NCBI GenBank assembly: GCA_020404895.1 | Contig: JADBWK010000019.1 | Location: 62,001-126,000 of the forward strand | Source: Pseudanabaena sp. M085S1SP2A07QC | GTDB lineage: Bacteria > Cyanobacteriota > Cyanobacteriia > Pseudanabaenales > Pseudanabaenaceae | DNA: 64,000 bases | Reading direction: 5' to 3' | Shown: positions 60,974 through 64,000 of the stretch, piece by piece | Numbering within the stretch: the first letter of the stretch is position 1 | Layout: each line of letters starts with the position of its first letter | Notes under the pieces: generated by a model | The model's input: the letters and a program-made list of their open reading frames with translations, nothing else | What the model was told of the DNA's origin: nothing | The model's database searches: none | Translations under genes and position numbers: made by a program

Positions 60974-61012
60974 AAAAATGAGAGGCGGCGCTTTGGGCCG
61001 CCTCTCATTTTT
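60974..61012. terminator. Hairpin at the end of the DEDD-like gene
   Basis: AAAAATGAGAGGCGGC arm, seven-base loop, T-run. It overlaps the stop of the minus-strand gene. Confidence 0.7.
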
Positions 61013-61725
61013 TAACTAGAGGGTCTTTGTAATGCAGCCCCCCTTCTAGACCTAATGCGTTGCTCCGATCGCGGATCAATTTTTAGGTTGATTATCTGGT
61101 GTTTATGGCGATCGACTAGGGGAAATTGAGTTTGCCAATTGCTGATTATATGAAAATAGTTCTCGGCATCTTCTAAACAATATTCATAGATTTCATTAAG
61201 AATTGTTTCATATCCTCTTTCTTTGCGTAGTACCTTAATTCCATTCCGAAAAACATAATATCCCTTGATTCTTTTATAAATAGGAATTTCCAAATAAGCA
61301 AATAAGTTATTTAAACCTTGATTGAGATCTGTCCGTTGGATAATTCTTTGTAAATCTAGGATTTTAATACTATCTACCTTGGGAATAAAATCTAGAGCCT
61401 CAATTCTTTGGCGTAAGCAAAACATATCACTAGTCGATAGACCGTAACCAATAAAGTACTTACTCTGTAAGCTCTGTAAGTCATATAAGATGTCTTGAAT
61501 TATCTTTTTTTCTTGGGTGCTTGATTCAATAAATTGAATTTTTATATATTGCTCATTGCTGTCTTCTAAAATACGAGTAAGCGTATAACCAAATATTTTT
61601 TGTACTAATCCATCTTTATGAAAATCGCGACACCATTCTAAGTCTAAAAAAACAAGATCGTAGATTGAGCCATCGTAGAAGTTGTTTATATATCGACTTG
61701 GAAGCTTGAGTTCCTTTTTATACAT
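61012..61725 (-). CDS. DEDD-type exonuclease-like protein
   Basis: Protein of about 237 residues. IYDLVFLDLEWCRDFHKDGL (D-x-E), YFIGYGLSTSDMFCLRQRIE (Asp) and YEYCLEDAENYFHIISNWQT (Asp) follow the three-aspartate-glutamate order of DEDD (RNase T/Pol proofreading) exonucleases. I did not find the final DEDDh/DEDDy residue with certainty. The ATG at 61725 (MYKKELKLPSRYIN) is preferred over TTG at 61749. Function is unknown; 3'-5' exonuclease activity is a prediction. Confidence 0.55.
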   Translation of the reverse strand: MYKKELKLPSRYINNFYDGSIYDLVFLDLEWCRDFHKDGLVQKIFGYTLTRILEDSNEQYIKIQFIESSTQEKKIIQDILYDLQSLQSKYFIGYGLSTSDMFCLRQRIEALDFIPKVDSIKILDLQRIIQRTDLNQGLNNLFAYLEIPIYKRIKGYYVFRNGIKVLRKERGYETILNEIYEYCLEDAENYFHIISNWQTQFPLVDRHKHQIINLKIDPRSEQRIRSRRGAALQRPSS

Positions 61726-61885
61726 AAAGTTTGACTTAGAGGTGGGCAAGGCAAAAAGCTAACAAATCTATTGATTATTTTGATCGGTACTGCTGTACCT
61801 ATCCATCCTAACTGTAATACTCAGTTTGAGATCACTAATTTAGCGATCACCCCTTAATATCTGTCGTCATGCTTGCTATGACATA

Positions 61886-61938
61886 AAATCCCCAAAATAG
61901 ATGTCGGCGCTTCGCGCCGACATCTATTTTGGGGATTT
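61886..61938. terminator. Hairpin at the end of the Nudix gene
   Basis: 25-bp arms (AAATCCCCAAAATAGATGTC) with tip GTCGGCGCTTCGCGCCGAC; belongs to the same hairpin family as copies 1-4. Confidence 0.75.
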
Positions 61939-62626
61939 AGATTTCAAAATTAAATCCCTTTTGTTTTAACTGTAGGTATTTATTCTCATCAAACTGATAA
62001 AGCTTAGCAGCTCGATGAGCTACATTGTGTTCGACTTTACCCGTATCGATAAGTAAGTCCATGCCGAGAATTTTTTTGCGAAAATTACGCTTGTCTAGAG
62101 GTCGATCTAATACAGTTTCGTAAAGTCTTTGTAGTTGAGACAGGCTAAAGTTTTGGGGTAGTAGCTCAAACCCGATAGGCTCATAACGAATTTTGCTACG
62201 TAACCTAGCGATCGCTATTTGCAAGATCTGATTGTGGTCAAAGGCAAGTTGAGGAATGTTAGAAATCGCAAACCATTCAGCCGCACGGGCATCTGTAGAA
62301 GCTTGAATTTTTTGCTCGACCAAATTTATAAGGGCGAAATAAGCAACGGTAACTGTGCGATCGCGGGGATCTCGCCCCAAATCACCAAAGGTATAAAGCT
62401 GCTCTAAGAAAATATGATGAATGCCTGTTTCCTCTTGCAGCTCTCGTAAAGCCGCCTCTTCAAGGGTTTCGTCAATGCGCACAAATCCCCCTGGGATCGC
62501 CCATTGTCCCTGAAACGGTGGAATATCACGCTGAATCAGCATGACTTTGAGCTCTTGCTGAGCATTAAGTCCAAATACAATGCAATCAACGGTGAGGGCT
62601 GGACGAGGGTATTCGTAGTTGTACAT
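61937..62626 (-). CDS. nrtR: Nudix-related transcriptional regulator, NrtR-type
   Basis: A 229-residue protein made of a Nudix domain and a C-terminal winged helix. The Nudix box is intact: [20 protein letters not shown] then ETG. Before it, [20 protein letters not shown] fits the NrtR/ADPR type. The C-terminal [40 protein letters not shown] and [13 protein letters not shown] are the NrtR DNA-binding signature. NrtR proteins are repressors of NAD genes that let go of DNA when ADP-ribose binds. Here the neighbours are a PP2C phosphatase and an ADP-ribosylglycohydrolase. Confidence 0.93.
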
Positions 62627-62635
62627 TTTTGTAAT

Positions 62636-62690
62636 TAGAGATTTAGAAATTACGAATTACGAATTACGAGTTGATACTTCGTAATTCGTA
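62636..62690. repeat. Inverted repeat AATTACGAATTACGA
   Basis: AAATTACGAATTACGAATTA and TCGTAATTCGTAATTA pair around GTTGATACT. It lies between the Nudix start and the operators, in the leader of the Nudix gene. Confidence 0.65.
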
Positions 62691-62703
62691 ATTATTTTCA
62701 CTC

Positions 62704-62755
62704 TTGACATAGTGTAAAAATAACACTATAGTTGTTTGTGTAGTTTATACACTAT
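62704..62755 (+). promoter_or_regulatory. Promoter with two NrtR-type operators
   Basis: TTGACA (62704-62709), a 17-base spacer and TATAGT (62727-62732). Operator 1 is ATAGTGT-AAAAATA-ACACTAT (62709-62729), a 7+7+7 palindrome that covers the spacer and both boxes. Operator 2 is TTTGTGT-AGTTTAT-ACACTAT (62735-62755), 5 of 7 positions paired, just downstream. These 21-bp dyads should be bound by the NrtR-like protein. They control the PP2C gene 6-30 bases downstream and perhaps the Nudix gene too. Confidence 0.82.
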
Positions 62756-62761
62756 ATCGTT

Positions 62762-63664
62762 ATGCAAGAGCAAGTTGAAGTCCCTGATATGCGATCGCCA
62801 CAAATTCCTGACTTAGAAATGCTGAATGAAATTCAAAATGAAATTCAAAATTTGTCAAGTCAGTTTGAGTATGCCTGCGGATCAATTATTGGGCGCAACC
62901 ATGTTCTTGCTAGTAAGAATAATCAGGATGCTCTACGGATTGTCCTGTGGGATAACTTTGTAACGGCTGTAGTTTGTGACGGCTGCGGCAGTGGTAAACA
63001 TAGCGAAGTTGGGGCAAAGATCGGTTCGCGGATGGTAACTGACGCGATCGCGGATTTACTCAATCATGGTTTGGCAATATCTGAGCCTGACTTTTGGAAT
63101 GTTCTCAAAATAAACTTGTTGCAAAAATTGAAGGATTTTGTCGCGATCGCCTATGCGAATCATGAATTAGCATCTGTAGTGGCAATTCATGAATTGCCAC
63201 TACAGATGGAATTTGTGAATAATTATCTATTATTTACAATTGTGGGCTTAGTTATCACTCCTAGCGAAACGGTTACTTTCTCAATGGGCGATGGTGCGAT
63301 CGCAGTTAATGGCAAGCTCATTCAAATCCCTGCTTATCCTGACAATGCACCGCCCTATCTTGCCTACGGTTTATATCGCCCTGATGCTATTGAGTTTGAG
63401 ATTCGCGATCGTATACCTACCTCAGAATTAGAATCTATTCTAATTGCTACAGATGGAATTGATGATTTGATTGCTGTTGAAGAAGTTCGTCAATTCTGGC
63501 AAGAAGATCGTTACTTTAAAAATCCTGATGCCATAAGGCGTAAGTTAGCGATGCTGAATCGTGAAGACATCAAGCCCGATTGGAATAAACGAGAGCTAAC
63601 TAAGCGATCAGGTGTTTTGTCAGATGATACAACCTTAATAACAATAAGAAGAAGCTTACCGTAG
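62762..63664 (+). CDS. PP2C-family phosphatase next to NrtR
   Basis: A 300-residue phosphatase-fold protein. Metal-site motifs are present: FVTAVVCDGCGSGKHSEVGA, VTFSMGDGAIAVNG, ILIATDGIDDLIAVEEVRQF and SGVLSDDTTLITIRRSL. The family core is unusual in one place: codons 63171-63208 form a perfect 38-bp palindrome and insert about 13 residues (SVVAIHELPLQM) between ANHELA and EFVNNYLLFTIVGL. The gene begins 6 bases after operator 2, so its leader is short. An ADP-ribosylglycohydrolase gene follows after 66 bases. Confidence 0.88.
   Translation: MQEQVEVPDMRSPQIPDLEMLNEIQNEIQNLSSQFEYACGSIIGRNHVLASKNNQDALRIVLWDNFVTAVVCDGCGSGKHSEVGAKIGSRMVTDAIADLLNHGLAISEPDFWNVLKINLLQKLKDFVAIAYANHELASVVAIHELPLQMEFVNNYLLFTIVGLVITPSETVTFSMGDGAIAVNGKLIQIPAYPDNAPPYLAYGLYRPDAIEFEIRDRIPTSELESILIATDGIDDLIAVEEVRQFWQEDRYFKNPDAIRRKLAMLNREDIKPDWNKRELTKRSGVLSDDTTLITIRRSLP
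63171..63208. repeat. 38-bp perfect palindrome inside the PP2C gene
   Basis: Arm CATCTGTAGTGGCAATTCA is followed by its exact complement. The same core as at 6.87, 11.85 and 38.2 kb. It is translated in frame and would form a hairpin in the mRNA. An imperfect copy lies directly after the stop (63662-63690). Confidence 0.9.
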
Positions 63665-63690
63665 AGGTAATTCATGAATTGTCCCTACAG
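63662..63690. repeat. Imperfect palindrome in the PP2C-ARH gap
   Basis: TAGAGGTAATTCATGAATTG followed by TCCCTACA, a variant of the same repeat with two mismatches in the arms. Confidence 0.7.
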
Positions 63691-63730
63691 ATGGAACAAC
63701 ATAGAAAATTTATTTCAGAGGTAAAAAATA

Positions 63731-64000
63731 ATGTTAGGTGCAATTGTTGGCGATATCGTTGGTTCGATTTATGAATTTAATAATCATCGCTCGAAAGACT
63801 TCCCTCTCTTTGGCGAAGACTGTAAATTCACTGATGACACAGTATTAACTGTAGCAGTTGCTGATTGTTTAATGAACAACGGTAACTACACCGAATACAT
63901 CAAGAACTATGCTCGTAAATATACAGGTCGAGGCTATGGAGGTCGCTTTAGACAATGGGTTAGCTCTGAGAGTATGGAACCTTATAATAGCTGGGGTAAT
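63731..64000 (+). CDS. ADP-ribosylglycohydrolase (partial, runs off the window)
   Basis: The first 90 codons of a DraG/ARH-family hydrolase, which removes ADP-ribose from proteins or small molecules. It starts MLGAIVGDIVGSIYEFNNHR, has the metal-binding motif KFTDDTVLTVAVADCLMN, then GRGYGGRFRQWV, typical of the family. An AGAGG ribosome site precedes the ATG. The frame is open at the window's right edge, so the 3' end and any later genes are unseen. Confidence 0.93.
   Translation, partial: MLGAIVGDIVGSIYEFNNHRSKDFPLFGEDCKFTDDTVLTVAVADCLMNNGNYTEYIKNYARKYTGRGYGGRFRQWVSSESMEPYNSWGN

Follow-up and report, generated by a model that had tools for sequence, protein, structure and literature searches.

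A divergent NrtR paralogue and its tandem operator at the head of a putative NAD-repair operon in a Pseudanabaena genome

The right-hand end of a 64,000-nucleotide stretch of Pseudanabaena sp. M085S1SP2A07QC (assembly GCA_020404895.1, contig JADBWK010000019.1; G000:C101:62001-126000 in our numbering), hereafter the window, carries the gene of an NrtR-type regulator, NrtR2, which diverges from an operon that the window edge cuts. The genome comprises 4.8 Mb in 190 contigs, and we followed the operon on downstream DNA (L008; window position equals L008 position plus 60000). In our best reading, to which we give a probability of about 0.6, the locus is the regulator-proximal end of an ADP-ribose-derepressed operon for repair of nicotinamide adenine dinucleotide (NAD), combining NrtR2, a nicotinamidase-like cysteine hydrolase (CYSH) and a phosphorylation switch of the TerY-P type. 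This reading draws on the content and order of the operon, its conservation across cyanobacterial families, the operator dyads, gene co-occurrence, structural matches and phage loci. The features are as follows.

61937-62626, minus strand: NrtR2, Nudix domain plus NrtR winged helix, 229 residues, intact Nudix box (Pfam, motif)
62704-62732, plus strand: promoter TTGACA-17-TATAGT (promoter score; same layout in relatives)
62709-62729, no strand: operator dyad 1, ATAGTGT-N7-ACACTAT, between and over the -35 and -10 boxes (pattern scan, conservation)
62735-62755, no strand: operator dyad 2, TTTGTGT-N7-ACACTAT, 26 bp 3' of dyad 1 (pattern scan, conservation)
62762-63664, plus strand: PP2C-type phosphatase, 300 residues, first gene of the operon (Pfam PP2C_2)
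63731-64513, plus strand, cut by the window edge at 64000: ADP-ribosylglycohydrolase (ARG; Pfam)
64482-66347, beyond the window: kinase-like gene with zinc ribbon and propeller, whose ATG at 64482 lies within the 3' end of ARG (motifs, model)
66475-67071, beyond the window: PD-(D/E)XK-like gene (PADLOC)
67096-68148, beyond the window: CYSH, 350 residues (structure model, motifs, context)
68182-68352, beyond the window: small open reading frame between CYSH and the vWA-like gene
68428-69201, beyond the window: vWA-like gene (motif, context)
69256-71979, opposite strand, beyond the window: topA, convergent with the operon

Among the cassette proteins, NrtR2, PP2C and ARG lie above Pfam cut-offs; the CYSH and vWA-like assignments rest on structure, motif and context, and the PD-(D/E)XK name comes from PADLOC. 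NrtR2 matches NrtR_WHD at 96.2 bits and NUDIX at 75.9 bits, with the Nudix domain preceding the winged helix and a full Nudix box (G-x5-E-x7-R-E-U-x-E-E-x-G-U). Against the NCBIfam equivalog for the ADP-ribose-responsive repressor (NF050029) it scores 181.6 bits, under the curated cut-off of 400, and is not assigned there. PP2C matches PP2C_2 at 72 bits, and a PDB search with its profile gave no match. ARG reaches 26.8 bits for the piece inside the window and 121.8 bits as a complete gene, against a PF03747 cut-off of 26.2. These results bear out a first-pass annotation of the window, which had described an NrtR-type regulator with intact Nudix box diverging from PP2C and ARG genes, and had guessed that a kinase or a larger module lay past the right edge. 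Kinase-like and vWA-like genes do lie there, extending to the right what it had described as one operator-controlled locus and supporting a signalling locus linked to NAD; a macro domain, which it had also suggested looking for, was found in none of the seven downstream open reading frames run through Pfam. The locus genes run through Pfam likewise held no ADP-ribosyltransferase or sirtuin, that search being confined to these genes. The PP2C gene contains a perfect palindrome of at least 28 bp (63176-63203), which has six further 100% copies in the genome and more at lower identity; it occupies an in-frame insert of about 11 residues that is missing from 5 aligned relatives.

The promoter (TTGACA at 62704-62709, a spacer of 17, TATAGT at 62727-62732) matches the consensus at 11 of 12 positions, and its call rests on score and conservation because promoter-like sites in the region are barely above expectation (8 against 6.4). 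As the first-pass annotation had stated, a 21-bp dyad covers this promoter and a second one follows. Dyad 1 is perfect and dyad 2 has one mismatch to the pattern WTAGTGT-N7-ACACTAW, which matches twice in the window at up to one mismatch; 100 shuffles gave a mean of 0.02 and never reached two. The genome-wide search that the annotation had proposed returned no other close copy, dyads 1 and 2 being the only sites at 0-1 mismatch in the whole genome. We rejected a genome-wide NrtR2 regulon, since the total at up to two mismatches lies below that of a control pattern (37 against 78 per strand) and the sites at 0-1 mismatch are local only.

We scored dyads in relatives out of 14 (position 1 being A or T) within 400 bp of NrtR2. 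The set of 49 NrtR2 loci combined 27 that we fetched with 22 of 24 named NrtR loci, some genomes being in both; L094 (cut gene) and L147 (scored separately, 12/14) were excluded. Dyads stand at the cassette promoter in all 49 of these CYSH-linked loci, 46 of them within 400 bp of NrtR2, where the best site scores 12 to 14, and three directly before PP2C. Two sites of at least 11 occur in 44 of the 49, spaced 22-27 bp in 41 and 36-37 bp in 3, and random 400-bp pieces of the same loci, real sites included, reached a score of 12 in 1.7%. The three exceptions (L059, L061, L089) have tandem dyads immediately 5' of PP2C, L061 and L089 sharing one site; in L059 the first dyad follows TTGACA, the last base of the second immediately precedes an ATG, and an extra pair lies just 5' of the kinase gene. 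Of 15 loci inspected from several families, 13 have an exact TTGACA leading into the first dyad (L056 has TTGACT, L093 none). One cassette without a nearby NrtR2 (G088) has two 14/14 dyads, and the NrtR2 about 2 Mb away has dyads of its own. Among 11 CYSH loci without a nearby NrtR, L063 scores 14 and the other 10 at most 11; a CYSH-vWA locus (L060) has a site of 13. An operator common to the paralogue NrtR1 was rejected, the best dyad reaching only 9-10/14 in six stretches upstream of pncB or NrtR1. This conservation points to the dyads as the predicted operator, at which NrtR2 would act as a repressor.

We surveyed the paralogues in 70 hand-picked genomes, 40 with CYSH (CYSH+) and 30 without (CYSH-), taking as NrtR2 any protein with a winged-helix score above 90 bits, a cut of our own. 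NrtR2 occurs in 21 of the 70, each CYSH+ (G028 has a copy at 88, under the cut), and lies within 9 kb of CYSH in 17 of the 21; the genes around the unlinked copies gave nothing informative. NrtR1 lies within 4 kb of a cyanobacterial-type pncB in 36 of the 42 genomes that have both, and follows pncB and nadD in the window genome. Because that genome has no other close operator and NrtR1 sits with pncB and nadD, NrtR2 looks like a local regulator. The Nudix box is intact in all 27 NrtR2 proteins and in five extra copies, four of these unlinked to CYSH, and is degenerate in all six NrtR1 proteins of pncB type; the NrtR of a metagenome-assembled genome (MAG; L147) departs from it at one position. 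According to one report, NrtR regulators control NAD genes, and the Mycobacterium smegmatis NrtR, with a degenerate box, has undetectable hydrolase activity and comes off DNA with ADP-ribose, the printed concentration being 50 mM (PMC6800001). Since NrtR2 has kept the box that NrtR1 has lost, and given the lack of detectable activity in the M. smegmatis protein, these sequences suggest that NrtR2 still cleaves its own ligand. As described there, such regulons share with ours a divergent regulator gene, a palindromic operator with a 7-bp spacer and NAD-linked targets; they differ in that the regulator here is a second paralogue with an intact Nudix box, a different operator sequence and, in the window genome, one target operon, made up of salvage and signalling genes.

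CYSH is likely a nicotinamidase, as judged by its predicted structure. The AlphaFold2 model has a mean predicted local distance difference test (pLDDT) score of 83.1, and its best Foldseek match is the nicotinamidase 2wta (E 2.8e-7). With VIA, fly nicotinamidase leads at Z 18.3 (root-mean-square deviation 2.8 over 215), and yeast Pnc1 scores 17.0. Across eight distant members, from cyanobacteria, phages, Variovorax, Vibrio and a MAG, D60, D108-x-H110, K223-G224 and C275 are invariant and H117 varies; we take D, K and C to be catalytic and D-x-H to bind metal. CYSH stays below the curated cut-off of PF00857 and is not assigned to it, and a phage relative does reach that cut-off (28.7 against 27). 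With PncA-type nicotinamidases (PDB 9u8m, 3v8e, 2wta) it thus has in common the fold, the D-K-C triad and the D-x-H motif, with roles as assumed above; unlike them it has about 50 extra residues at the N-terminus and a long insertion preceding the lysine, and falls below PF00857 detection. CYSH might instead be a cysteine amidohydrolase of another amide, of the biuret, maleamate or N-carbamoylsarcosine type, and linked to NAD only indirectly. The fold is shared, no sequence family matches, the second Foldseek match is N-carbamoylsarcosine amidase (E 2.6e-4), and VIA scores overlap: uncharacterised isochorismatase-family proteins at Z 13.5 and maleamate and biuret hydrolases at up to 13.3, against 13.1 for the lowest nicotinamidases. 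However, nicotinamidases fill the top 15 VIA rows (Z 18.3 to 13.7), the metal motif is retained, and CYSH co-occurs with pncB, excludes NAMPT and has pncB, nadE and nadD as neighbours in phages, all of which makes another amide a quite improbable substrate.

The genomic distribution of salvage enzymes is consistent with CYSH being the nicotinamidase. A cyanobacterial-type nicotinate phosphoribosyltransferase (NAPRTase) is encoded in 39 of the 40 CYSH+ genomes and in 4 of the 30 CYSH- genomes, or 1 of 27 without three incomplete or contaminated ones (Fisher p 2.6e-16, uncorrected for ancestry); that of the window genome matches solved nicotinate phosphoribosyltransferases. NAMPT bypasses the nicotinamidase step, and high-scoring NAMPT-type members of the same Pfam family are found in none of the 40 CYSH+ and 7 of the 30 CYSH- genomes. 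The two of these seven that we tested both match solved NAMPT, with best-entry E values of 5.5e-168 and 2.9e-180; that entry is named Pre-B cell enhancing factor related protein, and human-type NAMPT chains follow at E below 1e-122. A canonical PncA in the window genome was rejected: its only two PF00857 matches (L171, L172) lack D-x-H by eye, and presumably resemble biuret-type hydrolases. In the CYSH- genome G020, a D-x-H isochorismatase-family gene lies beside pncB and NrtR1 (G020:C26:584490-587828) and is a possible replacement of CYSH.

CYSH is the most widespread and most constant member of the cassette. At E up to 0.001 it was found in 245 of the class's 388 genomes, a few of the matches being weak, and 27 other aligned cyanobacterial sequences are 66-97% identical to the CYSH of the window genome; the closest named relatives, at up to 99%, are mostly from Pseudanabaena. 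Among 40 neighbourhoods that we picked for family spread, and whose genomes overlap with the named set, NrtR is present in 26 and the kinase in 25. The named set consists of the best 80 of at least 562 relatives, is biased to close ones and includes some short contigs; in it we found NrtR in 24 loci, PP2C in 23, ARG in 14, the kinase in 22, vWA in 24 and PD-(D/E)XK in 5. Of its 22 kinase loci, 21 have PP2C, 21 vWA, 18 NrtR and 13 ARG. The neighbours are thus kept together across cyanobacterial families, where the first-pass annotation had said that scattering would speak against its proposal, with ARG a dispensable member. Outside cyanobacteria, a MAG labelled Proteobacteria (L147) has the order NrtR-CYSH-PncB, and in Variovorax NrtR and CYSH diverge, NAD kinase and macro-domain genes lying close by. 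Two CYSH relatives are found on very large replicons: in Variovorax sp. SRS16 plasmid 2 (L207) the neighbours are NrtR-like, Nudix, macro-domain and NAD kinase genes, and in a Vibrio vulnificus plasmid (L208) they are an RNA ligase and a TerD-family gene.

The kinase, PP2C and vWA-like genes together resemble a TerY-P triad. The kinase falls below the Pfam Pkinase cut-off (E 0.058). In 15 sequences G21-G22, K36, D149, N154 and D166 are invariant, presumably in their usual kinase roles, as are cysteines 301, 304, 313 and 316. Its model (mean pLDDT 75.7, predicted template-modelling score 0.53, weak at 219-332) matches the kinase-WD40 half of LRRK2 first, IRAK4 kinase lower and many propellers. 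In the vWA-like protein D58-D59-S60-G61-S62, T127 and D163 are invariant, which we take to resemble a metal ion-dependent adhesion site (MIDAS); profile comparison with Pfam-recognised vWA gave no match, and the protein and its phage counterpart both belong to PHROG 7371. In PMC11090510 the triad is defined by a vWA-like protein, a PP2C and a Ser/Thr kinase with a C-terminal zinc ribbon, and is hypothesised to be a metal-sensing switch. The predicted Ser/Thr kinase here fits that description, its putative zinc ribbon being read from the cysteines alone; as compared with the same text, it bears an additional C-terminal beta-propeller, and the triad accompanies CYSH and stands under NrtR2, in place of a link with restriction or tellurite genes.

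The same genes occur in large phages. A tblastn search with CYSH found four phage records, three of them of 462-595 kb, and a scan of IMG/VR found 121 contigs with relatives, of which we kept 80, phage status following the collections' labels. By profiles seeded from the GenBank phage loci, 70 of the 80 contain the full quartet of CYSH, vWA, PP2C and kinase, and 63 have it in the plain order CYSH-vWA-PP2C-kinase; of the 10 incomplete loci, two end within 1 kb of CYSH, and in the other eight one or more of the genes are missing from the 8 kb covered. The viral profiles recognise the cyanobacterial proteins strongly, with E values of 1.8e-71 (CYSH), 1.2e-52 (kinase), 1.5e-28 (vWA) and 4e-21 (PP2C) for those of the window genome. 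PncB-like genes accompany 25 of the 80 loci, NadE 19, NadD-like 16 and any of the three 34, with NADAR in 6, NrtR-like genes in 9 (5 above 140 bits) and ARG, by the cyanobacterial profile, in 1; NadM counts were discarded, the model also catching Nudix regulators. A 436-kb contig (L259) reads PncB-NadE-CYSH-vWA-PP2C-kinase-NrtR-NadD, Pfam confirming PncB (weakly), NadE, PP2C and NrtR and assigning NadD a cytidylyltransferase-like fold. In its 16.8 kb, dyads scoring 12 or more are confined to one pair (5365 and 5387) that lies at the 5' end of the PncB frame, over a TTGACA-17-TATAAA promoter with the layout seen in cyanobacteria; the reversed control has none of at least 11. The other strong-NrtR phage loci (L228, L230, L234, L241) have no dyad above 11. 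In a gut phage contig (L206, 2255-3703) a DUF2828/DUF7788 vWA-containing gene lies directly 5' of the CYSH-vWA-PP2C-kinase set. For gut phages, the accessible part of PMC10607447 lists a nicotinamidase and a cysteine hydrolase, with no kinase or vWA alongside.

These counts also bear on the idea that the locus is an ordinary NrtR regulon of NAD metabolism, with PP2C, kinase and vWA as unrelated passengers. NrtR control of NAD genes is well known (PMC6800001), and reduced forms exist among the named loci: divergent NrtR-CYSH in two and NrtR-PP2C-CYSH in two, besides CYSH-vWA in three. Passengers would nevertheless hardly account for PP2C and vWA each accompanying the kinase in all but one of its 22 named loci, or for the quartet in phages, and we hold this explanation to be improbable.

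A defence role has more in its favour. A 2022 analysis predicted systems in which ARG is joined by Nudix regulators, phosphatases and vWA chaperones, with induction by ADP-ribose (PMC9503650, section 3.8). Applied here, phage ADP-ribosyltransferases would modify the host, ARG would demodify it, NrtR would sense ADP-ribose and the vWA protein would act as chaperone. The locus matches that description in its ARG, one-component Nudix-helix-turn-helix regulator, phosphatase, vWA-like protein and restriction endonuclease-fold extras. It differs in lineage, theirs being actinobacteria, planctomycetes and diverse proteobacteria; in phosphatase, theirs with Nudix or WYL regulators being rhodanese-type, calcineurin-like, HD or HAD; and in its most constant gene, which is the nicotinamidase-like one, ARG being optional. 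PP2C, PncA, nicotinamidase and isochorismatase are not present as whole words in the main text of PMC9503650, as far as it is accessible. Defence is further favoured by the PD-(D/E)XK-like gene (PADLOC PD_DExK, 161 bits), by a weak match of the NrtR2 Nudix part to PDC-S07 (34 bits), by tandem ARG copies in relatives, and by the antiphage activity reported for stand-alone TerY-P-like modules with an OB-fold kinase (PMC11090510). Against it, PADLOC gave no match for PP2C, ARG, kinase, CYSH or vWA, ARG is absent from 9 of the 22 kinase-bearing named loci and nearly so from the viral ones, viral contigs themselves carry the quartet, and CYSH diverges slowly for a defence protein. On balance we regard a counter-ADP-ribosylation defence as unlikely, though not negligibly so. 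In ARG itself, each position of the FTDDT- and GGDSDT-type motifs is kept in at least 80% of 24 sequences, presumably in their usual roles, and the protein is below the equivalog cut-offs of DraG (TIGR02662, 48 against 337) and Tri1 (NF041672, 44.9 against 490). Loci L042 and L046-L054 have two or three tandem diverged copies.

Under the preferred reading, an NAD-repair operon, NrtR2 would sit as a repressor on the two tandem dyads over the promoter. Breakdown of NAD+ by ADP-ribosyltransferases or NAD hydrolases would raise ADP-ribose, which would release NrtR2 as it does studied NrtR proteins. The products of NAD+ cleavage are nicotinamide and ADP-ribose, the latter free or attached to macromolecules; a handler for each would be encoded here, together with a sensor of ADP-ribose. 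Where present, ARG would strip ADP-ribose from macromolecules, and CYSH would convert nicotinamide to nicotinate. From nicotinate, PncB, NadD and NadE would rebuild NAD+; their genes lie at other sites in cyanobacteria and frequently next to CYSH in large phages. Kinase, PP2C and vWA-like protein would form a TerY-P-type phosphorylation switch, and the NrtR2 Nudix box would probably cleave ADP-ribose, resetting the system. The first-pass annotation had drawn much of this outline. Its idea that the Nudix protein destroys the signal is plausible, the box being strictly kept, and the closed ADP-ribose loop stays an inference; it had centred on the wrong gene, however, the most constant partner being CYSH, outside the window, and ARG, being optional (present in 13 of the 22 named loci with a kinase), cannot provide the general trigger by releasing ADP-ribose. 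Nor is the locus as little-described as it had supposed, ARG with Nudix regulator, phosphatase and vWA having been predicted in 2022 (PMC9503650) and vWA-PP2C-kinase being the TerY-P set of PMC11090510.

Several observations weigh against this reading. NrtR2 lies away from CYSH in 4 of its 21 genomes, and three of those four copies have no dyad at their own promoter. That ADP-ribose is its ligand is extrapolated from other members of the NrtR family. Relaxing Pfam to E 10 brings up no family for CYSH, and its sequence matches nothing in the PDB; the vWA-like protein has no Pfam vWA, PDB or hhalign match, and its assignment rests on the conserved MIDAS-like motif. The co-occurrence figures come from hand-picked genomes and are uncorrected for shared ancestry, and one genome (G192) has CYSH and the cassette with no NAPRTase match. 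At a relaxed threshold, two of the 80 viral loci have tandem dyads, as does one of the 80 reversed controls; because there is no phage-wide excess, the L259 site rests on position and layout. Finally, 49 of the 80 named loci have CYSH with none of NrtR, PP2C, ARG, kinase or vWA, which indicates that CYSH also works alone; among the largest clusters of its neighbours at stand-alone loci no recurrent NAD gene was seen by eye, Pfam not being applied there.

As a wider and tentative proposal, which we find possible but would not bet on, CYSH and the TerY-P-type vWA, PP2C and kinase may form an unnamed NAD-status switch of cyanobacteria and very large phages. In it the kinase and phosphatase would control or read NAD salvage, and an ADP-ribose-cleaving NrtR paralogue on a tandem operator would induce it upon NAD+ consumption, for repair in the host and for phage survival of NAD-depleting defence. 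The link between a nicotinamidase-like protein and TerY-P appears to be new: we found no report joining TerY-P or NrtR2 to a nicotinamidase in our searches of the openly licensed literature, which does not include the original 2012 description of TerY-P, nor in the accessible part of PMC7824862, searched alongside PMC9503650. If the reading is right, TerY-P triads gain a concrete biochemical setting in NAD+ recycling, cyanobacteria gain a nicotinamidase candidate that family libraries miss, and cells and at least one large phage contig use one regulator-operator arrangement for the same operon. A likely view of such loci as centred on ARG is also corrected, CYSH being the most constant gene.

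Three further features lie around the regulator gene. On its 3' side, 61012-61749 on the minus strand holds an RNase_H_2-like gene barely at the Pfam cut-off (22 bits), and a 20-pair hairpin, terminator-like on both strands, immediately follows the NrtR2 stop (61890-61934). Between NrtR2 and the operator (62648-62694) lies a copy of a palindromic repeat family, another copy of which stands between CYSH and vWA (L008 8350-8396).

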